Positions 18,861 through 36,617 of a stretch of DNA of 64,000 nucleotides are shown piece after piece. The translations under genes were made by a program, and so were the position numbers. The stretch is from Henriciella sp. Lineage in GTDB: Bacteria > Pseudomonadota > Alphaproteobacteria > Caulobacterales > Hyphomonadaceae. How positions within the stretch are numbered: the first letter of the stretch is position 1; each line of letters opens with the position of its first letter. The notes below the pieces were generated by a model. The model ran no database searches. It saw only the letters and a list, made by a program, of their open reading frames with translations, and had not been told where the DNA came from. The DNA is taken from assembly GCA_002733705.1 (NCBI GenBank), contig NVWP01000030.1:1-64000 (forward strand), in the 5' to 3' direction.

Positions 18861-19078
18861 GTCCAGCAGCAGCTAGCGCGGGCCGAGCCATTAGGCCAGC
18901 GCCGAAGCTGATGTGTGGCTTTTTTGCAAGCCTTTAAAGGTGAATGTTGCGGGGCACAGAACAGTTATAATCGTGTCACGAAACCGTTACAGAGCGGGCA
19001 TAGAGGCGCGGTCAATTAGCCCGTAATTCGCCTGAATTCGCAGGGGGCGCGGGTTGTTCAACCGAAGAGGGGTTCTTC

Positions 19079-22000
19079 ATGTCCAACTGGAAACTTTATT
19101 CCGGCGCTGCGGTGAGCCTGATGGCCGCCGCCGCGATCGTTGCGCCTGCCCAAGCGCAGGTCACCTCCGCGGGTATCCGCGGTGACATCGTCTCGCCAAG
19201 CGGCGAAGCCGTTCCTGGCGCTTCGGTGCGCATCATCGATACGCGGACGGGTGCAGTCAGCACCTCGACAGCCAGCGCGACCGGCCAGTTCCAGACGCGC
19301 GGCCTGAATGTCGGCGGTCCTTACACCATCGAGATCGCAGCGCCTGGTTATCAGACCACCCGCATCACGGATATCGTCCTGCAGCTGGGTGAAGTCGCCA
19401 ATGTCGAAGTCGCTTTCGCGGCAGCCGCTGACGATGACGCCGAAGCCCGGATGGAAGTTGTGACCGTTTCGGCAACCGCAGGCGGCCTCGTCCAGACCGC
19501 TATCGGCCCGTCGGCAACCTTCTCGCTCGAGGACATCGAGCAGACCCCTGCCATCAACCGCGACCTGAAGGACATCGTCCGTCTCGACCCGCGCGTCTAT
19601 CTCGACGAGTCCTTCAACGACTCGATCCAGTGTGCCGGTTCCCACCCGCGCTTCAACTCGCTGACGGTTGACGGTATCGGCCTCAATGACGGCTTTGGCC
19701 TCAACTCGAACGGCTATCCGACCCAGCAGATGCCGTTCCCGTTCGACGCCATCCAGAACGTTTCGGTCGAGCTGGCCCCGTTCGACGTCGAGTATGGCTC
19801 CTTCACCGCCTGTAACATCAACGCGGTGACCAAGTCCGGCACGAACGAATTCCACGGTTCGGCCTTCTACGACTATGGCGACGACAGCCTGGTTGGCGAC
19901 AAGACCGAAGGCCAGGACTATACCGGCCCTGACTTCGAGGAGAAGCGTTATGGCTTCACCCTCGGCGGCCCTGTCCTGAAAGACCGTCTCTTCTTCTTCG
20001 GCGCCTACGAAAAATTCGAAGGCCCGGGCGCAGAGATCAACCGCACGCCGGAAGGCGGCAGCGGTCAGGTCGTTGAAGGCTTCACCCAGGCCGAATTCGA
20101 CGAAATCAGCGACATTGCCCAGAACGTCTACGGCTACAATCCGGGCGGCATTCCGACCGCGGAAGGCACCGAAGACGAGAAGTACCTCATCCGCGTCGAC
20201 TGGAACATCACGGACAATCACCGTGCGACCGCCACCTACAACTACAATGAGGGCTTCAGCCTCAGCGAGTCCGATGGCGACGACGATGAGTTCGAGTTCG
20301 CAAACCACCTCTACAACCGCGGCGCAGAGCTGAAGGCCTATTCCGGCCAGGTCTTCTCGGACTGGACGAACAATTTCTCCACCGAGCTTCGTTATTCCTA
20401 CAACGACGTGACCTTCCTCCAGCAGTCGGTTGGCGGCACGGAATTCGGCGAAGTCCAGATCACCGACCAGAACGTCGAAGCAGTGGACGGCACGAACCAG
20501 CGCAACACCATCTATCTTGGTGCTGACGACTCCCGTCACTCCAACCAGCTGGAATACTCGGTCGCCAACTACAAGGCGCTTGGCCGCTACAATGTGGGCA
20601 ACCACAATCTCACCTTCGGCGGTGAGCGTCAGGAATATGAGATCTTCAACCTGTTCGTTCAGGAATCCGAAGGCGAATTCCGCTTCAACTCCATCGACGA
20701 TTTCCGCAACGGGATCGCTGCACGCGTGATCTATGAGAACGCTGCCGGCACGAACAATGCCGCCGATGGCGCTGCCTCCTTCGAGTATGAAGTCAACACG
20801 CTCTACGCCCAGGACGAGTGGACCGGCCCGAACGGCCTGACCGTGACTGCGGGTCTGCGCTATGACTTCTACACGTCCGACTCGAAGCCGAACTTCAACC
20901 AGGATTTCCGGGATGAGTACGGTTTCAGCAACAATGAGAACATGGACGGCAGAGACCTGCTGATGCCGCGTATCGGCTTCACCTATGACTATCAGCCGAA
21001 CCTCTCCTTCCGCGGCGGCTTCGGTCTCTACTCCGGTGGTAACCCGAACGTCTGGATTTCGAACAACTACTCCAATAACGGCGTCACGCTCTACGAAGCC
21101 AACCGTCGTAATTTCGACCTGTTCGCAAACCCGGTTGCCGGTGGTGACACCCCGATCTTCGGTGTGCCGCAGGAAATGTTCGACGAAGTTGCCAATGGCG
21201 CCGTCAGCGGCCCGGTCAACGCGCTCGATCCGGACTTCGAGATCCCGTCTGAGTGGAAGTTCGCTCTCGGCTTCACCTACGACTTCAACACGCCGTCCTT
21301 CGGTAACGGGTATGTGCTGAACGCCGACGTTCTTTATTCGAAGGTCAGAGACGCCGCGATCACCAAGGCCATCTCGCTTGATCGTGTCGGTTCAGCTCCG
21401 GATGCCCGCCCGATCTATGACGAGAACACGGATGACTTTATCCTGACCAACACCAATGAAGGTCAGACATTCGTGGCCTCGCTGGCTCTGTCGAACGCCT
21501 TCGACACCGCTGCCGGTGAGTTCGACTGGTCGCTCGGCTATGCCTATGTGAATGCAGAAGACGTCAACCCGATGACCTCGTCGGTGGCTTATTCGAACTG
21601 GTCGAACGTCGCAGTCGTGGATCCTAACGATCCAATGGTTGCAACGTCGAACTATCAGGTCCCGCACCGTTTCACGGCCCGCGTCAGCTGGGAGAAGAAA
21701 TTCTTCGGTGAATACGCAACCCGCGCAACGCTGTTCGGCCAAGCCTACCAGGCCCGTCCGTTCTCCTTCACCTATGCCGGTTCCTCGCCGTTCGGCGATG
21801 ACACGTTCGGCCGCGCCCTGGTCTATGTTCCGACCGATGGCTCGACCGACCCGCTCATCAACTACGCGGCTTCCTCGGTCGATTGGGATGCCTTCTTCCG
21901 TTACACGGACGGTCAGGATCTCTCACGCGGCCGCATTGCCGAGCGTAACTCCGGTGAAGGCCAGTGGAACAACCGCTTCGACCTGCGTCTCGAGCAGGAG

Positions 22001-22252
22001 CTGCCGGGTGCCTTCCAGGGTCACCGCACCAAGGTCTTCGCTGTGATGGAAAACGTCGGCAACTTCCTCAACGACGAATGGGGCGCCTACTATCAGGCTG
22101 GCTTCCCGCAGACGACCGAGATCGTTCAGGCCGAGATCGACCCGGTCACGGGCCAGTACATCTACAGCTCGTTCAACGACGCCAATCCAGAGAGCAAGAC
22201 GAACAACCTGTCTGTCTGGGCTGTCCGCTTCGGTGTGAAGTACGACTTCTAG
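19079..22252 (+). CDS. Oar-like TonB-dependent outer-membrane receptor
   Basis: A 1057-residue outer-membrane protein with a Sec signal (1-26, cut after APAQA). Residues about 30-110 form a carboxypeptidase-regulatory-like beta-sandwich (SAGIRGDIVSPSGEAVPGAS), then a TonB plug (about 125-250) and a large barrel ending in the outer-membrane signature VKYDF. This is the Oar/TBDR layout of Caulobacterales and Myxococcus. Codon use is strongly biased to C-ending codons, as in highly expressed genes. A good ribosome site (GAGGGG) precedes it. The substrate is unknown; peptides or large glycans are usual guesses. Confidence 0.9.
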   Translation: MSNWKLYSGAAVSLMAAAAIVAPAQAQVTSAGIRGDIVSPSGEAVPGASVRIIDTRTGAVSTSTASATGQFQTRGLNVGGPYTIEIAAPGYQTTRITDIVLQLGEVANVEVAFAAAADDDAEARMEVVTVSATAGGLVQTAIGPSATFSLEDIEQTPAINRDLKDIVRLDPRVYLDESFNDSIQCAGSHPRFNSLTVDGIGLNDGFGLNSNGYPTQQMPFPFDAIQNVSVELAPFDVEYGSFTACNINAVTKSGTNEFHGSAFYDYGDDSLVGDKTEGQDYTGPDFEEKRYGFTLGGPVLKDRLFFFGAYEKFEGPGAEINRTPEGGSGQVVEGFTQAEFDEISDIAQNVYGYNPGGIPTAEGTEDEKYLIRVDWNITDNHRATATYNYNEGFSLSESDGDDDEFEFANHLYNRGAELKAYSGQVFSDWTNNFSTELRYSYNDVTFLQQSVGGTEFGEVQITDQNVEAVDGTNQRNTIYLGADDSRHSNQLEYSVANYKALGRYNVGNHNLTFGGERQEYEIFNLFVQESEGEFRFNSIDDFRNGIAARVIYENAAGTNNAADGAASFEYEVNTLYAQDEWTGPNGLTVTAGLRYDFYTSDSKPNFNQDFRDEYGFSNNENMDGRDLLMPRIGFTYDYQPNLSFRGGFGLYSGGNPNVWISNNYSNNGVTLYEANRRNFDLFANPVAGGDTPIFGVPQEMFDEVANGAVSGPVNALDPDFEIPSEWKFALGFTYDFNTPSFGNGYVLNADVLYSKVRDAAITKAISLDRVGSAPDARPIYDENTDDFILTNTNEGQTFVASLALSNAFDTAAGEFDWSLGYAYVNAEDVNPMTSSVAYSNWSNVAVVDPNDPMVATSNYQVPHRFTARVSWEKKFFGEYATRATLFGQAYQARPFSFTYAGSSPFGDDTFGRALVYVPTDGSTDPLINYAASSVDWDAFFRYTDGQDLSRGRIAERNSGEGQWNNRFDLRLEQELPGAFQGHRTKVFAVMENVGNFLNDEWGAYYQAGFPQTTEIVQAEIDPVTGQYIYSSFNDANPESKTNNLSVWAVRFGVKYDF

Positions 22253-22337: not shown

Positions 22338-23345
22338 ATGACCGACACGACCATTGTATACACACCGGCCGAATGGGCGCCGCAGTCCGCCGTCTGGGCA
22401 GGCTGGCCGCATCTGAAGGATGCCTGGGCTGAAGACTATGAAGGCGCCCAGCGCGAGATTGCTGCCCTCATCGAGGCGCTGGCGCCTGTCGTGCGGGTGA
22501 AGCTCGTCATTGGCGACCCCGCCTCACGCGCCGAAGCGGCTGACCTTGTCGGGGAGCGGGCCGAGATGTTCGAGGCGCCGATGGGCGATATCTGGCTGCG
22601 CGATATCGGCCCGGTCTTCGTCAAATATCTGAACAAGCTCGAAGGGCTCGGGTTCGAGTTCAATGGCTGGGGCGGCAAGTATGAGCTGGAAGGCGACACT
22701 GAGACCGCCGCCGCAATTGCACGCATGGAAGGCCATCCGCTGAAACGCCTGCCCTTCGTCCTCGAAGGCGGCGCGGTCGAGCAGGATGGCGAAGGCACGC
22801 TGATCACGACGCGCCAGTGCGTTCTCAACCCCAATCGCAATCCGGACTGGGGGCGGGAAAAGGCCGAAGAGAATCTGAAGCTCGCCTTCAACGCCAAACG
22901 GATTGTCTGGCTGGGCGACGGGCTTGCGGGTGACCATACAGATGGCCATGTCGACAATATCGCGCGCTTCATCGCGCCGGGCCATGTTGTCTGTCAGACA
23001 CCGTCCGGAAAGGATGATCCGAACGCTGACGTCCTGCGCGAGATCGAGGAGACGCTGCGGGCGGCCGAGCTTCAGGTCTCCACCATTCCTTCGCCGGGCC
23101 GCATCCTCGATGAGGATGGCGAGGTCATGCCGGCGAGCCATATGAATTTCCTCATCTCCAATGGCCGGGTCATCCTGCCCGTCTATGAGGAGAAGCATGC
23201 CAAGCTTGCCGAGGCAGAATTGCAGGCGCTGATGCCGGACCATGAGGTGATCGCCCTGCCATCGCGTCACATCCTGTCGGGCGGCGGCAGCTTCCACTGC
23301 ATGACCCAGCAGGTCCCCCAAACAGACGGAGGTCTCTCGACATGA
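22338..23345 (+). CDS. aguA: Agmatine deiminase
   Basis: A 335-residue enzyme that converts agmatine to N-carbamoylputrescine plus ammonia in the cytoplasm. It belongs to the guanidino-group modifying (PPADI) superfamily. The start EWAPQSAVWAGWP is the family hallmark, the acidic/His site is seen in DHTDGHVDN, and the catalytic Cys321 in GGGSFHCMTQ near the C-terminus. No clear ribosome site lies before ATG 22338. It overlaps aguB by four bases (ATGA), giving coupled translation of the two-step agmatine to putrescine route. Confidence 0.95.
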   Translation: MTDTTIVYTPAEWAPQSAVWAGWPHLKDAWAEDYEGAQREIAALIEALAPVVRVKLVIGDPASRAEAADLVGERAEMFEAPMGDIWLRDIGPVFVKYLNKLEGLGFEFNGWGGKYELEGDTETAAAIARMEGHPLKRLPFVLEGGAVEQDGEGTLITTRQCVLNPNRNPDWGREKAEENLKLAFNAKRIVWLGDGLAGDHTDGHVDNIARFIAPGHVVCQTPSGKDDPNADVLREIEETLRAAELQVSTIPSPGRILDEDGEVMPASHMNFLISNGRVILPVYEEKHAKLAEAELQALMPDHEVIALPSRHILSGGGSFHCMTQQVPQTDGGLST

Positions 23346-24184
23346 GCAGAACCGTGAAAGTCGCCGCGCTACAGGCCTCGTTCAGCCAGGACATGCAGGC
23401 CAATATCGACAAGGTGAAGACGCTGGTGCGTGAGGCCGCGGCCAAGGGCGCCGAGATCATCCTGCCGTCAGAGCTCTTCTGTGACCATTATTTCTGCAAG
23501 GTGCAGGACGAGAAATTCTTCCGCACGGCCTATCCCTGGACCGAACACCCCGCCGTTGAGCAGCTCTCAGAGCTTGCAGGCGAGCTGGGCGTGGTCATTC
23601 CCGTCTCGATCTATGAGAAGGACGGTCCGGAATACTACAATTCCATCGTCATCATCGATGCCGACGGCACCCCGCTGGGCGTCTATCGCAAGAGCCACAT
23701 CCCCGATGGGCCGGGTTATATGGAGAAGTTCTACTTCCGCCCCGGCAATACAGGCTTTCGCGTCTGGGACACGATGAAGGGACGGATCGGCGTCGGTATC
23801 TGCTGGGACCAGTGGTTCCCGGAAGCCGCGCGCGCGATGACGCTCATGGGCGCAGATATTCTCTTTTATCCCACCGCCATCGGCTCAGAGCCGCATGACG
23901 CTGACCTCGACACGGCAGCGCGCTGGCGCAGGGCCATGCAGGGCCACGCCGTTTCCAACGTGATCCCCGTCGTTGCGGCGAACCGGACCGGCAATGAAGA
24001 GGGCCAGATTTTCTATGGCACCAGCTTCATCGCCGACCATGCCGGCGAGATTGCCGATGAGCTTGGCCGCGATGAGGAAGGGGTCATCCTGGCCGAGTTC
24101 GATCTCGATTTCCTCGACCGCCACCGCGCTGCCTGGGGCTTTTTCCGGGACCGGCGCACAGACCTCTATGAGGTGCTGGGCTAG
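23342..24184 (+). CDS. aguB: N-carbamoylputrescine amidase
   Basis: A 280-residue nitrilase-family enzyme that turns N-carbamoylputrescine into putrescine, carbon dioxide and ammonia. The catalytic triad is intact: Glu44 in ILPSELF, Lys117 in YRKSHIPDG and Cys154 in GICWDQWFPE. These surrounding motifs are specific to AguB among nitrilases. It starts inside the aguA stop codon and ends five bases before a convergent gene. With aguA it gives a complete arginine-decarboxylation-dependent polyamine route, although no speA lies in the window. Confidence 0.95.
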   Translation: MSRTVKVAALQASFSQDMQANIDKVKTLVREAAAKGAEIILPSELFCDHYFCKVQDEKFFRTAYPWTEHPAVEQLSELAGELGVVIPVSIYEKDGPEYYNSIVIIDADGTPLGVYRKSHIPDGPGYMEKFYFRPGNTGFRVWDTMKGRIGVGICWDQWFPEAARAMTLMGADILFYPTAIGSEPHDADLDTAARWRRAMQGHAVSNVIPVVAANRTGNEEGQIFYGTSFIADHAGEIADELGRDEEGVILAEFDLDFLDRHRAAWGFFRDRRTDLYEVLG

Positions 24185-24189
24185 AGGGT

Positions 24190-25074
24190 TCAGAACATTT
24201 CTTGTGGGCCGGGCGCCTTGCGGCCGAGAAACAGGAAGCGGAGCGCGGCAAGGCTCGCCAGTGCCAAAAGGGCAAAGCCGGCAGCGCCTGCCGAGGCGTG
24301 GGTCTCCGAAAAGGCGTCGGCGTAATCCATATAGCGGGCCGGCATGCCCTGCATGCCGAGCGCCAGCTGCTGAAGGATCATCCAGATGCCTGCGACGCTG
24401 ATGCCGACCATGAGCGCGAGATTGAGTGTGATCGAGTGGACCCGGCCCGCGATAGCGGCGCCGGTTGCCAGTATGGTCAAGCCGGACAGGATGATAGAGA
24501 GGCCATAGGCGTGCGCGCGGCCTGTCGGATACCAGGTGTCGGATAATATTGCATCGACGCCGGCACTTGCCTCTACCAACGCAAGCAGGCCGCCCCATAG
24601 CCAGACGGCGACGGCCGGGGCTGCCAGGATCATCATCTCCAGTCTCCGCCCCTTTGCAGCGCCAATTGCGGCGGCTGACAGGGCCAGCAAAAAGGCTGCC
24701 GTGATGGCAATGGCGGGCGCGGCAGAACCCGTCTGCTCTGAAAGGCTCAGGAGGGCGCCTCCGCACAGGCCGGCGGCAACAAGGAAGCTGATGGCGACCG
24801 CCATGATCCGCTGGCGATCCGCGAGGCAGGCCCGGACCAGCGAAAAGAGGCAGGCGCCGGTCAGGGCACAGGTCAACAATGGGGCAGCGAGCCCGGCATG
24901 AAGACTGCGCCAGCGCTGCCATGCCTGAATCGCTTCCTGCCGGCCGCCGCCCATATCGATGCCGGGGCGGAGCAGTTCCCCCTGAACAACCACAATTGGA
25001 AGCGCAAAGGCGACGAGTACCAGAGCGGCTAGAACGCCGCGCAGGATAAGGATCGGAGCGCGACTTTTGTTCAC
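24190..25074 (-). CDS. Degenerate heme-copper-oxidase subunit I-like membrane protein (copy B)
   Basis: A 294-residue protein with about eight membrane segments. GELLRPGID then RSLHAG (H59) resembles helix I-II of oxidase subunit I, where the His binds low-spin heme. LSDTWYPTGRAHAYG (H188) resembles helix X DTYYVVAHFHYV, with the low-spin His kept and the high-spin His replaced by R186. LGMQGMPARYMDYADAF (239-255) resembles the end of helix XI, LGRQGMPRRYIDYPEAF in Paracoccus. The CuB motifs HPEVY and HH are absent, and roughly 190 residues between the heme histidines are missing. GTG start with AGGAG ten bases upstream. I infer a one-heme membrane protein, not an oxidase. Confidence 0.7.
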   Translation of the reverse strand: MNKSRAPILILRGVLAALVLVAFALPIVVVQGELLRPGIDMGGGRQEAIQAWQRWRSLHAGLAAPLLTCALTGACLFSLVRACLADRQRIMAVAISFLVAAGLCGGALLSLSEQTGSAAPAIAITAAFLLALSAAAIGAAKGRRLEMMILAAPAVAVWLWGGLLALVEASAGVDAILSDTWYPTGRAHAYGLSIILSGLTILATGAAIAGRVHSITLNLALMVGISVAGIWMILQQLALGMQGMPARYMDYADAFSETHASAGAAGFALLALASLAALRFLFLGRKAPGPQEMF

Positions 25075-25093
25075 GGGTGAGGTCTCCTGGGCT

Positions 25094-25975
25094 CTAGGCC
25101 TGATGAGCCTCGGGCGGCCGAGGCCTCATCAGAAGGAAGTGTCGTAGCAGGCCGGCGAGGGTCGCGCCAACCAGCGTAAAGGCGCCAGCGCCAGCGATAT
25201 ACATGTCGACGGCAATGTCGGGCCGGTCGCCCGCAAATGACCGTGGGACGTCTGCGACGCCAAGGCGGTACTGGAAGATCACCATCGCGCTTGCCGAAAC
25301 ACAGATGATGAAGGCCAGAAGCGCGCCGATTATGCCGGACTGGCGAAGGCCCCGTTGATGGGCGCGAGCCTCAAGCAAGGCGAAGGTGGACAGCAGGATG
25401 GACGCCCCTCCGGCATGGGTTGCGGCGACATCGAGCCAGGTGCCGGGCTGCGTCTCCTCACTGCGGGCAAGGAACGTCAGATCGATGAAACTCACCGCCG
25501 CGATGAGCGCCCATGACAGATAGGCGAGCGCCAGCAGGCGGCTTGAGCCGGTCACGAAGAAGGCAAGCCCACTGGCAAAGAGAAGCGCACTTGTGAGGGC
25601 AATCAGCCCATGAATCTCACCCGCGAGAGCCGCTGCGAGAAAAGCTTCCGGCAACGCAAGAAGGGCCAGCAGCCCCGCCCCGGCGAGAATGACGAGGACA
25701 CCCGACCCGCGCCCGCCATCTTCTCTCACCAGCTTTATGGCAGGGAGGATCACAAGGCCGAGGAAGACCAGGCCCGGTATGGCCAGAAAGGCAGGGCCCG
25801 CGTGAAGGTCGCGCAGATACTGCCAGATGAATATGGCCGCTTCGACGCCGCCGCTGGGTCTCAGGAGTTCCGGAATGAGCAGCTGCAGCTGGATCCATGT
25901 GGCGGGCACGGCCAGCCCGATGCCGACCAGAAGGACGACGGCTGTCTTCGCAGGACCGGGCCGGAGGAAGAGCAT
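25094..25975 (-). CDS. Degenerate heme-copper-oxidase subunit I-like membrane protein (copy A)
   Basis: A 293-residue paralogue of the next gene, which follows after 19 bases. It has about eight membrane segments. PELLRPSGG then LRDLHAGPA places H58 like the helix II low-spin heme ligand, and GTWLDVAATHAGG places H187 like the helix X ligand. Ala185 takes the place of the high-spin His. The spacing H58-H187 is 129 residues, exactly as H59-H188 in the partner. The MPRRY-type motif has decayed to ADVPRSF. No CuB histidine pair is present. It is the first gene of the pair (GGAG 11 bases upstream). Without the partner I would have called it an unknown membrane protein. Confidence 0.65.
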   Translation of the reverse strand: MLFLRPGPAKTAVVLLVGIGLAVPATWIQLQLLIPELLRPSGGVEAAIFIWQYLRDLHAGPAFLAIPGLVFLGLVILPAIKLVREDGGRGSGVLVILAGAGLLALLALPEAFLAAALAGEIHGLIALTSALLFASGLAFFVTGSSRLLALAYLSWALIAAVSFIDLTFLARSEETQPGTWLDVAATHAGGASILLSTFALLEARAHQRGLRQSGIIGALLAFIICVSASAMVIFQYRLGVADVPRSFAGDRPDIAVDMYIAGAGAFTLVGATLAGLLRHFLLMRPRPPEAHQA

Positions 25976-26064
25976 GTCAGTTGCGTCTCCGGCAGACCGG
26001 AACGCGGCAAATGCCGACGGCGTTATTGCGGATGGCGATCACTGCCATGTCCGGATGTGAAAAA

Positions 26065-27093
26065 ATGAAGATCTTCACCTGCCCCACCTGTAACGGTCCC
26101 CTCTATTTCGATAATCTCACTTGCGCCTGCGGCACAAGTGTCAGCTTCGATCCGGAAGCGGAAGCGTTCGAACAACTGGATGTGCCGTGTGCCAATCGCG
26201 AGCAGATCGATTGCAACTGGCATGCCGAAGCAGGCCCGGGCACCTATTGCCGCGCCTGCGCGATGACGGAGATCGTCCCGGATTCGCTTGTCACGACGAA
26301 TATCCCGCTTTGGGCCGACACCGAGGCGGCCAAGCGCTGGGTGCTGGTCAATCTGGGCCAATGGGGCTGGCTGAAGGCGAATGATGCAGGCCAGAAGCCG
26401 CGGTTTCACCTCCTGTCGGAGCACACCTCAACCGGCCATGCGCCTGTCACGATGGGGCATGCCGACGGGCTTATCACGATCAATGTGACCGAAGCCGATC
26501 CCGCGCGCCGGGTCGAGCGCCGCGAGAGGCTGAGCGAGCGATACCGCACCTTGACCGGGCATTTCCGCCATGAGCTCGGTCACTATGTCTTCTTCCGGCT
26601 GGTTCAGGACGCGAAGTTTGCAGACGCATTCCGCAAATTGTTCGGCGACGAACGCGCAGATTACGGGGCTGCCCTTTCGCGCCATTACGAGCAGGGGCCG
26701 CCGCAAGACTGGCAAACCCGTCATATCACGGGCTATGCCTCCAGCCATCCGCATGAGGACTGGGCCGAAAGCTTTGCCCATATCGTTCACCTGACAGACA
26801 TGCTCGACAGCGCGAATGCTGCCAGGCTCAAAGCGCCTGGCGCCGATGTGCCCGATGCCTATCGGGCAGCTGACAGCGAAAGCGTCATTTCGGCGGGGGC
26901 CTCGCTCGGCCTCGCGCTCAATCATATCAACCGGTCTATGGGGCTGGCTGATATCTATCCCTTTGTCATCGCGCCCAAGGTTCGCAAGAAACTCAAATTC
27001 GTGCGGGAAGCTGTTGCGAAAGGGCCGATTGAGAGAACGCAGCCGCACCGGCGGAAGCGGAACTGGAACCCCTTCCGGTCTGCATCGCTGTAG
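26065..27093 (+). CDS. Putative zinc-binding metallopeptidase (zinc-ribbon + Peptidase_Mx type)
   Basis: A 342-residue cytoplasmic protein. The N-terminus is a zinc ribbon (CPTCNGPLYFDNLTCACG) with a further CRAC pair near residue 73. The catalytic part carries HELGH at 169-173 (FRHELGHYVFF), with downstream acid and His residues in HPHEDWAESFAHI. This is the layout of the DUF2248-like 'putative zinc-binding peptidase' group; substrates are unknown. I start at ATG 26065 (MKIFTCPTC); an in-frame ATG at 26047 is also possible. The C-terminus is rich in Arg/Lys. Confidence 0.85.
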   Translation: MKIFTCPTCNGPLYFDNLTCACGTSVSFDPEAEAFEQLDVPCANREQIDCNWHAEAGPGTYCRACAMTEIVPDSLVTTNIPLWADTEAAKRWVLVNLGQWGWLKANDAGQKPRFHLLSEHTSTGHAPVTMGHADGLITINVTEADPARRVERRERLSERYRTLTGHFRHELGHYVFFRLVQDAKFADAFRKLFGDERADYGAALSRHYEQGPPQDWQTRHITGYASSHPHEDWAESFAHIVHLTDMLDSANAARLKAPGADVPDAYRAADSESVISAGASLGLALNHINRSMGLADIYPFVIAPKVRKKLKFVREAVAKGPIERTQPHRRKRNWNPFRSASL

Positions 27094-33491: not shown

Positions 33492-36400
33492 ATGCCAGAC
33501 ACGCTCAAGCAAGCAGAGGCCGGATGGGATAGCCTTGATCGCCTGAAATTCGCCGATGAGGAAGCCCTGGTCGCCGACCTTCTGAAAGCCTTGCCGCTTG
33601 ATGAGCGCGCCCGCACGGCTGCGGTCCGGCGCGGACGGGAGCTTGTCAGCTCTGCGCGGGCAGCTGGCCGGCCGAAAGGGATGATGGAGAGTTTTCTCGA
33701 AGAATTCGGGCTTTCCAATGCCGAGGGGCTTGCGCTCATGTGCCTTGCAGAGGCCTTGCTGCGCGTGCCGGATGCCGAGACGCGCGACGATCTCATCGCT
33801 GAAAAAATCCGCTCCGGGGACTGGGGCTCGCATTCCGGCCAGTCCGATAGCTGGCTGGTCAACGCCTCCACCTGGGGGCTGATGCTGACCGGCCGGGTCA
33901 TCGGTCCGCCAAGCGACGCGAAGAAAGGCCCATCCACCTTCCTGTCGAATCTGATCCGCGAAAGCGGTGAGCCGGTCATCCGCACGGCCATGATGCAGGC
34001 AATGCGGATCATGGGCGAGCAATTCGTGCTCGGCCGGACCGTTGACGAAGCCCTGAAGCGCGGGCGCAAAAAGGTAAAGGCGGGCGAGGCGGCCAATTTC
34101 AGTTTCGACATGCTGGGTGAAGGGGCCCGCACCAAGGAAGATGCCGAGCGGTATTTCACCTCCTACATGCAGGCCATCGAGGCGGTCGCCGCTGATGGCG
34201 ATGCGTCTTTCGCGCCCGAAGAAAAGAACGGCATTTCCGTCAAACTGTCGGCCCTTCATCCGCGCTATGAGGCGGTCAATGAAGCGCGCGTGCATGCCGA
34301 GCTCTATCCCCGCCTGCTGGCGCTTTGTGAGGCGGCGGCCAAGGCCAATATCAATCTCTGCCTGGATGCTGAAGAAGCCGACCGGCTGGTCATCTCGCTT
34401 GAGATTCTGGAGCGTCTCATGCGGGAGCCTTCCCTGAAGGGCTGGGCAGGGCTGGGCCTTGCGGTCCAAGCCTATCAGAAGCGGGCGCTTGAGGTGATCG
34501 AGAAACTGTCACGCCTCGCCGGCGAGACGGATATGCGGATCATGGTGCGGCTGGTGAAGGGCGCCTATTGGGACACCGAAATCAAGCATGCCCAGGAAGA
34601 GGGTATGGTGAACTTCCCGGTCTTCACCACCAAGCCCGGTACCGACATCAACTACCTCTCCTGCGCGCATGCGCTGCTGCAGGCGAGTCCGCGCATCTAT
34701 CCGCAATTTGCGACGCATAATGCCCATTCGCTCGCGACCATTCTGATGATGGCCGAGTCCGAAGGCGTCACAAATTATGAGTTCCAGCGCCTGCATGGCA
34801 TGGGCGAGCCGCTGTATGGCGCTGCCGACAAGGCCGACAAGGTGCGCGTCTATGCGCCGGTCGGGGCACATAAGGATTTGCTGCCCTATCTGGTCCGGCG
34901 CCTGCTGGAGAATGGCGCGAATACGAGCTTCGTCCATTCCTTCCTCGACCCGGATGTCCCGGTCGAGAAGGTGGTGGACGATCCGATTGCCAAGGTTGAG
35001 GCAGGCCCCCGCCGCCATCCGCGTATTCCAACCCCGCCGCGCCTCTATGGGCCGATGCGGCGCAATTCGATTGGTGTTGACCTCTCGCAGGCAAGCGAGC
35101 GCAAGGTTCTGGAAGAGAATGTGGAGCAGCTGCGTCAGGGCAGCGCGCTCGTTTCCGGCCCGATCATTTCCGGTAAGCCGAAGACAGAGGGGGGCGCGGA
35201 GGTCTTCGCACCGGCCGATACCTCCCGCCGCCTTGGCACCGTCCTTGAGGCCAGCGAATCCGATGCGGATGCCGCCCTGAATGCAGCGGTCGCTTTTCAA
35301 GGCGAATGGGACGCGCTGGGCGGTGCAAAGCGGGCAAAAATCCTTTCCGATATGGGCGATGCGCTTGAGTCCAATATGGACCGGCTTGTCGCCCTGATGG
35401 CCGAAGAGGCGGGCAAGACATTTGGCGACGGTATCGCGGAAGTGCGCGAGGCGGTCGACTTTTGCCGCTACTATGCAATCCAGGCCGAAGAGCATTTTGA
35501 AGGGGCGACCCGCCTTCCGGGGCCGGCCGGCGAGACCAATCATATTTCGCTTCATGGCCGCGGCGTCTTTGCCTGTATCTCGCCCTGGAATTTCCCGCTG
35601 GCGATTTTTACCGGCCAGATCACCGCGGCGCTTGGGGCAGGCAACACCGTCATTGCCAAGCCCGCCGAACAGGCGCCGATCATTGCCTATGAAGCGGTCC
35701 GTATCTTCCAGTCGGCCGGCCTGCCGGGCGATGCGCTGCACCTTCTGCCCGGGCGGGGCGAAACGGTCGGCGCCTATCTGACCCGTGATCCGCGCGTGAA
35801 GGGTGTCTGCTTTACCGGCGGGACCGACACGGCGCGTCTCATCAACCGGACGCTGGCAGAGCGGGAGGGCGCGATCATCCCGCTCATCGCCGAAACGGGC
35901 GGGCTGAATGGCATGTTCGTCGATACCACGGCCCTGCGCGAACAGGTGATCGACGATGTCCTTGTCTCCGCCTTCGGCTCAGCCGGACAGCGCTGCTCGG
36001 CGCTGCGGCTTCTTTTCCTGCCGCGCGCAACCGCTGACTTCCTGCTGGAAGGGCTGAAAGGGGCGATGGACGAGCTGCAGATCGGCGACCCCGGGGAGGC
36101 GGATACCGATATCGGTCCGGTCATCGATGGCGAAGCCTGCGGAATGCTGAACGATTATCTCGCGCGCATGAAGGGCGAGGCAGAGCTTATCAAAACGCTT
36201 GAGGCACCGCAGGGCGGGCACTTCTTCGGCCCCGCCATCATCGAGCTGTCCTCCATCGACCAGATCGAGAAGGAGACCTTCGGCCCGGTCCTGCATGTCC
36301 TGCGCTACGATCCCGACAATATCGCAGAGGTCGGGGCGCAGCTGGAGGCCAAGGGCTATGGGCTGACCCTCGGCGTGCATTCGCGTCTGGAAAGCTTCGC

Positions 36401-36617
36401 CGGGAAGGTCCGTCAGGCTGTCCATGCCGGCAATACCTATGTGAACCGGTCGATGACCGGCGCTGTGGTTGGCGTGCAGCCCTTCGGTGGGGAAGGCCTT
36501 TCTGGCACCGGCCCCAAGGCGGGCGGGCCTCACTATATGCTGCGTTTTGGCACAGAGCGTGTGGTGACAGTCGACGTGACGGCACAGGGTGGCGATCCGG
36601 AACTGCTCAGTCTATAG
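33492..36617 (+). CDS. putA: Bifunctional proline dehydrogenase / P5C dehydrogenase PutA
   Basis: A 1041-residue enzyme that oxidises proline to glutamate. The FAD-dependent proline dehydrogenase barrel (about 120-480) shows [26 protein letters not shown] and [10 protein letters not shown]. The NAD-dependent aldehyde dehydrogenase half (about 540-1030) shows [14 protein letters not shown], Glu801 in IAETGG, and the catalytic Cys835 in [10 protein letters not shown]. It lacks the N-terminal ribbon-helix-helix DNA-binding domain of the E. coli type, so it should not repress its own gene. GGGAG precedes the start. Confidence 0.96.

Follow-up and report, generated by a model that had tools for sequence, protein, structure and literature searches.

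Genes A and B, a tandem pair in a Henriciella genome of 3.37 Mb, belong to a family of small membrane proteins (14 genes in 12 genomes, all within the order of Henriciella) that very probably descends from subunit I of the heme-copper oxidases with loss of the active site. We propose that the two proteins are rare subunit I descendants in which the O2 centre is lost and the low-spin heme pocket is kept, and that they would work as one-heme membrane cytochromes, a complete reading that we believe and doubt in equal measure.

Genes A and B and their surroundings

The window, which is the whole stretch of 64,000 nucleotides that was analysed, carries the two genes and their pocket residues as listed here; the codon coordinates of all six pocket residues were checked against the window sequence.

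24190-25074, minus strand: gene B, 294 aa, GTG start, eight predicted helices, very probably a COX1-derived membrane protein
24190-25074, minus strand: features kept in B, namely Q31, H59, H188 and a GMPxRYxDYxD loop
24982-24984, minus strand: Q31 codon of B, helix I, at the position of bovine R38 and of Q42 in T. thermophilus ba3
24898-24900, minus strand: H59 codon of B, helix II, equivalent of the first low-spin heme ligand
24511-24513, minus strand: H188 codon of B, helix X, equivalent of the second low-spin heme ligand
25094-25975, minus strand: gene A, 293 aa, eight predicted helices, paralogue of B
25094-25975, minus strand: features kept in A, namely Q29, H58 and H187, with the helix XI-XII loop motif gone
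25889-25891, minus strand: Q29 codon of A, helix I, equivalent of Q31 of B
25802-25804, minus strand: H58 codon of A, helix II
25415-25417, minus strand: H187 codon of A, helix X

The two genes lie head to tail in the order A to B, and B begins 19 bases downstream of A. These are the two adjacent open reading frames of 293 and 294 aa to which the first-pass annotation had given eight helices each, and hydropathy indeed finds eight segments in either protein. The end of B lies 5 bases from the end of a convergent gene (23342-24184) for a carbon-nitrogen hydrolase, read as an amidase, and a divergent zinc-ribbon metallopeptidase gene at 26065 faces the start of A (names from Pfam). The hydrolase gene forms part of the region 22338-24184 (plus strand), in which it and a PAD_porph-type deiminase gene overlap by 4 bases (Pfam); with enzyme names inferred, the pair reads as agmatine deiminase and N-carbamoylputrescine amidase. 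The amidase gene is present in all 29 genomes of the genus, and the metallopeptidase gene (26065-27093, plus strand; zinc-ribbon and Peptidase_Mx, PF10005 and PF15887) adjoins the A-type gene in all seven genus genomes that bear one. Between these two conserved genes, the site 24184-26065 is variable: it holds an A-type gene in five genomes and A plus B in two, and it is empty in G025, with about 125 bases separating the amidase gene from the metallopeptidase gene. The empty-site reading is limited to G025, since the metallopeptidase was not found in the flanks examined in the remaining A-less genomes of the genus.

The family very probably derives from subunit I

Protein B resembles subunit I beyond chance, as the first-pass annotation had held. 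Specifically, it matches the Pfam model COX1 (PF00115) at E 4.3e-7 with 29.6 bits, short of the curated cut-off of 34.8 bits, the NCBIfam CtaD_CoxA equivalog model TIGR02891 at E 2.8e-7 with 29.6 bits, short of the cut-off of 670.75 bits, and PDB structures of subunit I chains with E values down to 7e-5; with the CtaD of its own genome it shares 34% identity across 127 aa. Protein A alone matches no subunit I family in Pfam or NCBIfam and no subunit I chain in the PDB, and its only listed family matches are weak ones to other families (E 0.067 and 0.099). It does match B across most of its length (E 4.8e-7 and 6.8e-8), and hhalign gives a weak independent similarity between A and CtaD (E 0.021). 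A profile built from 11 family members retrieves subunit I chains from the PDB at E 7e-10. Among 11 members scanned singly, COX1 matches three at E 0.01, one of which passes the cut-off with 38.5 bits, and CtaD_CoxA matches five at E 0.01, with a best E of 2.1e-13.

In a block test, the family alignment of six non-A members was cut into blocks and searched against 1351 ORFs from the window and other collected loci, of which 49 are labelled CtaD by motif; these CtaD copies are related and do not count as independent trials. The helix I-II block puts CtaD at ranks 1-12 of the non-family matches and in 33 of the top 40, although the best E is weak (6e-4), and the helix X-XII block (best E 5.1e-17) has CtaD at ranks 1-12 and at 37 of the top 40 places. 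From the same 1351 ORFs, the middle blocks (helices II-IV and IX) each retrieve no CtaD in the top 12 and one in the top 40. Because the helix II-IV block misses CtaD, the assignment of the helix II histidine depends on alignments beginning in helix I. In the printed alignments, the EL..PG motif after helix I is aligned with EL..PG of CtaD, and the helix II histidine falls on that of CtaD in two of the four, which are the two that extend to helix II. The helix X histidine of the family is in register with the second His of the CtaD motif HFH. For the A proteins, an A-only profile of helices X-XII finds labelled CtaD in 12 of its top 20 non-family matches (best E 0.008), the remaining eight including truncated A copies and a contig-end piece of a CtaD operon (L074), and an A-only profile of helix I finds labelled CtaD in none of its top 40. 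In a tree built on the helix X-XII block, with 13 members and 16 CtaD sequences, the family is split from CtaD at 99% ultrafast bootstrap and the A genes are grouped at 100%, the deeper branch order being weak.

An ELLRP segment had been seen in both copies, but the two segments do not line up: in the alignments Q31-GELLRPG of B is paired with Q29-LQLLIPE of A, and the ELLRP of A, which comes further along, is not conserved among the other six A-type genes.

With subunit I of the A-type oxidases (CtaD/COX1; PF00115, TIGR02891), the family has in common the helix II histidine and the second His of HFH in helix X; most non-A members also have the helix I exit motif EL..PG, and non-A members have LG and the GMPxxYxDY-like loop of helices XI-XII. 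In contrast, the oxidase subunit is about twice as long, with 12 helices compared with the eight or six predicted in the family, and the family lacks the high-spin heme ligand and the CuB motif HPE and carries Gln at the R38 position. Taken together, the matches support the descent from subunit I that the first-pass annotation had put forward. The heme-copper oxidase family is described in PMC3084760 by at least 12 transmembrane helices, a low-spin heme and a binuclear centre; under that description, the A/B family would consist of descendants, not members, of the heme-copper oxidases.

Membrane topology

Of nine members scanned by hydropathy, seven have eight segments, one has nine (G114) and one has six (G226, 225 aa), and the CtaD control in the same scan gives 11 segments where 12 are expected. 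Two 225 aa versions, the smallest in the family, are located at L075:6669-7346 (plus strand) and L142:3359-4036 (minus strand); they come from G226 and G758, genomes of a different family of the same order, and that of G758 has this length when counted from the equivalent start. Among the predicted loops of B, those facing one side hold 12 Lys/Arg in 46 residues and those facing the opposite side 6 in 96, an asymmetry that fits an N-terminus inside. Since six and eight helices have the same parity, both histidines would lie on the same side of the membrane in both versions. Along the sequence, helix I (to the start of helix II) and helices X-XII match CtaD and the middle does not. The hhalign and HMMER alignments run straight into helices VII-IX and display no clean deletion, a pattern that would fit a loss of helices III-VI as well as one of V-VIII.

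The low-spin ligand positions are kept and the active-site ligands are lost

Six positions are identical in all 14 members (Q31, H59, H188, L196, L202 and G240 in B numbering), with two alignment modes in agreement; of these, only Q31, H59 and H188 are polar. The sequences are otherwise far apart, the least alike pair sharing 15% identity and the 12 members besides the two B genes being 20-28% identical to B. In the alignments, Q31 takes the place of bovine R38, and H59 and H188 occupy the sites of the two low-spin heme ligands. We take H59 and H188 of B to correspond to the bovine low-spin ligands H61 and H378. The positions first given for the histidine pair, H59/H188 in B and H58/H187 in A, are confirmed, and the pair in helices II and X, the putative heme ligands, is aligned in 14 of 14 homologues. 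In the member of G111, two histidines 7 residues apart compete for the helix II position and the alignments choose differently. Both 225 aa members retain the equivalents of Q31, H59 and H188.

Two residues ahead of the helix X histidine, where the oxidases have the high-spin heme ligand, the family has R, A, G, L or N, so the ligand is replaced in 14 of 14 members; R186 in B and A185 in A are as originally reported. The His ligands of CuB lie in the motifs HPE.Y and HH. No member has HPE (0/14), and an HH pair occurs in two (S_G111 and S_G226) and in neither A, B nor the other members, which agrees with the earlier statement that CuB motifs are absent. All seven non-A members, and none of the seven A members, keep the Y.D (tyrosine and aspartate) in the helix XI-XII loop.

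Purifying selection acts on A, with dN/dS of 0.13-0.19 in all ten pairs of the five closer A genes. The ratio is 0.23-0.64 in the 11 A pairs that involve G000 or G002, where dS exceeds 1, 0.18 in the single B pair, where dS is saturated (2.56), and 0.39 in the pair G035/G114. Divergence of the family genes is rapid: G000 and G002 share 40% identity in A and 51% in B, compared with 97% in the adjoining amidase.

Members and distribution

Genes A and B occur together only in G000 and G002, an A-type gene occurs alone in G004, G013, G016, G017 and G020, and single family genes are found in G035, G114, G111, G226 and G758. A member is present in 10 of 105 genomes of the same taxonomic family (E 1e-12). 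In the order, it is present in 12 of the 398 genomes sampled, with five or six candidates scored per genome, and distant members could have escaped; this scarcity suggests that the function is dispensable. The matches in another 110 order genomes are frames of CtaD length or near contig ends. The class and phylum samples (385 and 398 genomes), scored in the same way, contain no member outside the order at E 1e-12, with the frame of G1000 set aside. A scan of the collection finds relatives in Henriciella sp., H. barbarensis, H. marina and H. algicola, the last two with a single A-type gene each; with B, a scan of the plasmid collection gives no match, as does a scan of genome contigs with B alone as query. 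The short frames that resemble CtaD and lie at contig ends (L071-L074 and G224) were judged pieces of ordinary oxidase genes, and short frames in G233, G045, G700 and G1000 were set aside solely for their position within about 420 bases of the contig start.

The first-pass annotation had considered the pair a functional unit, perhaps a heterodimer. This part is not supported: A and B co-occur in 2 of the 12 family-bearing genomes and a single family gene was found in each of the other 10, so a heterodimer cannot be general. An obligate pair as a general feature was likewise rejected, as the B-type gene is present in 2 and the A-type gene in 7 of the 29 genus genomes.

In G035 and G114, which belong to another genus, the family gene (mini-COX1) shares 4 and 10 bases, respectively, with the 3' end of a gene that looks epimerase-like by eye, an overlap that suggests coupled translation.

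L020:7956-9730, minus strand: mini-COX1/epimerase-like overlap locus, start as chosen here
L069:6601-8372, minus strand: mini-COX1/epimerase-like overlap locus, start as chosen here

No gene neighbour common across genera is recognised at the loci inspected by eye (for G020, among the genes listed).

A proposed one-heme membrane cytochrome and its alternatives

In the mechanism that we propose, each protein would bind one bis-histidine heme between helix II and helix X, held by H59/H188 in B and by H58/H187 in A close to the periplasmic face, and the small membrane cytochrome would move electrons from a periplasmic or quinol donor to some partner. Heme binding by the family is likely; electron transfer, although the likeliest job, is a tentative assignment. 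Small bis-histidine membrane cytochromes b of the cytochrome b561 type, in which heme is held by His pairs within the helix bundle, would work alike, and among the members scanned none matches the Pfam and NCBIfam models of heme A synthase CtaA or cytochrome b561. For the family as a whole, we see an even chance that it is a stand-alone low-spin heme module, i.e., a single-heme-b membrane cytochrome with a minimum of 225 residues and six predicted helices.

The heme would probably be heme b. Bovine R38 contacts the formyl group of heme a, and T. thermophilus ba3 has Q42 there and heme b, according to PMC12901375; by analogy, a family with Gln at this position should hold heme b as well. The ba3 subunit I described there has in common with the family the Gln at the R38 position beside low-spin heme b, but it is part of a full oxidase and is likened by description only, the best family matches of B being to CtaD-type models. 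In addition, the deletion of surf1 in R. sphaeroides is reported to leave 50% of aa3 without heme a3 (PMC9145763), which suggests that the low-spin site can form without heme a3. The family is no replacement for the oxidases in the genome of A and B, where a full CtaD gene and another full heme-copper oxidase gene are present.

The same two oxidases would need heme, and the kept pocket positions next to a vanished catalytic site could also serve a protein that holds heme transiently for delivery to, or quality control of, the oxidases of its own cell, as an assembly or reservoir factor; PMC9145763 states that the mode of heme insertion into subunit I is unknown. Such heme handling is unlikely in our view. 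The family loci, inspected by eye, have no recognised oxidase operon, no oxidase or assembly gene is recognised beside the family genes (for G020, among the genes listed), and oxidase assembly can do without the family, since 95 of 105 genomes of the same taxonomic family lack a member at E 1e-12.

The family could instead be a heme-free remnant, that is, a decayed subunit I in a structural role whose histidines are kept by chance or for folding. The nearest report that we found offers a precedent in another alphaproteobacterial group: the 'deranged COX1-like protein' of Acetobacter, encoded in a cluster with ctaB, is likewise a relative of subunit I from which O2 reduction is not expected (PMC10715153). 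The loss of the helix XI-XII loop motif in seven A-type genes would be in keeping with decay. However, the Acetobacter protein is said in PMC10715153 to be without all metal-binding residues, whereas the family keeps the low-spin ligands and sits elsewhere, a distinction drawn by description only; that two ligands and Q31 persist in every member despite the low identity to B argues against a remnant, which we find improbable.

A membrane sensor or regulator of heme, oxygen or redox state that signals via some partner would suit the sporadic spread and the fast divergence seen between G000 and G002, but Pfam scans of 11 members find no signalling domain and FNR-type sites in the window are at chance level (16 found, 15.2 expected), leaving this explanation a slim chance. 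That the proteins are unrelated to subunit I and resemble it by hydrophobic convergence is made unlikely, to the point of being hardly credible: DUF998 (PF06197), a family brought up by the profile scans, matches 2 of 11 members at E 3.8e-5 and 0.0061 with 23.8 and 16.7 bits, short of its curated cut-off of 30 bits and outscored by COX1 in the same two members (38.5 and 33.1 bits), and both the CtaD_CoxA matches and the confinement of the block matches to helices I-II and X-XII, in register, argue for homology.

Novelty and implications

In the open-licence full-text literature searched, we found no description of such a protein, in line with the initial remark that no such family had been described, and no papers on Henriciella and cytochrome c oxidase. 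If the one-heme cytochrome reading is true, the family would be, as far as the literature searched goes, the first heme-copper oxidase descendant without a binuclear centre yet with a working redox site. Were heme binding confirmed, the oxidase fold would prove reducible to about half with the electron-entry heme still placed, and there would be a small natural protein in which low-spin heme, its potential and linked proton movements could be studied without an adjacent oxygen-reducing centre. The roles of the D- and H-pathways in oxidases are presented as debated in PMC12901375, and a protein with low-spin heme only would bear on that debate. Confirmation would also add a non-oxidase branch to a superfamily defined, in the description of PMC3084760, by 12 helices and a binuclear centre. 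In practice, the label 'cytochrome c oxidase subunit I' may be wrongly given to family genes.

Other features of the window

An Rfam scan of the window gives no matches. A 515 aa open frame at 19058-20605 (minus strand), antisense within the gene 19079-22252, is probably spurious, and that gene resembles, by eye, a TonB-type receptor. At 33492-36617 (plus strand) lies a gene for a bifunctional proline dehydrogenase/aldehyde dehydrogenase (PutA-like) with a DNA-binding domain.
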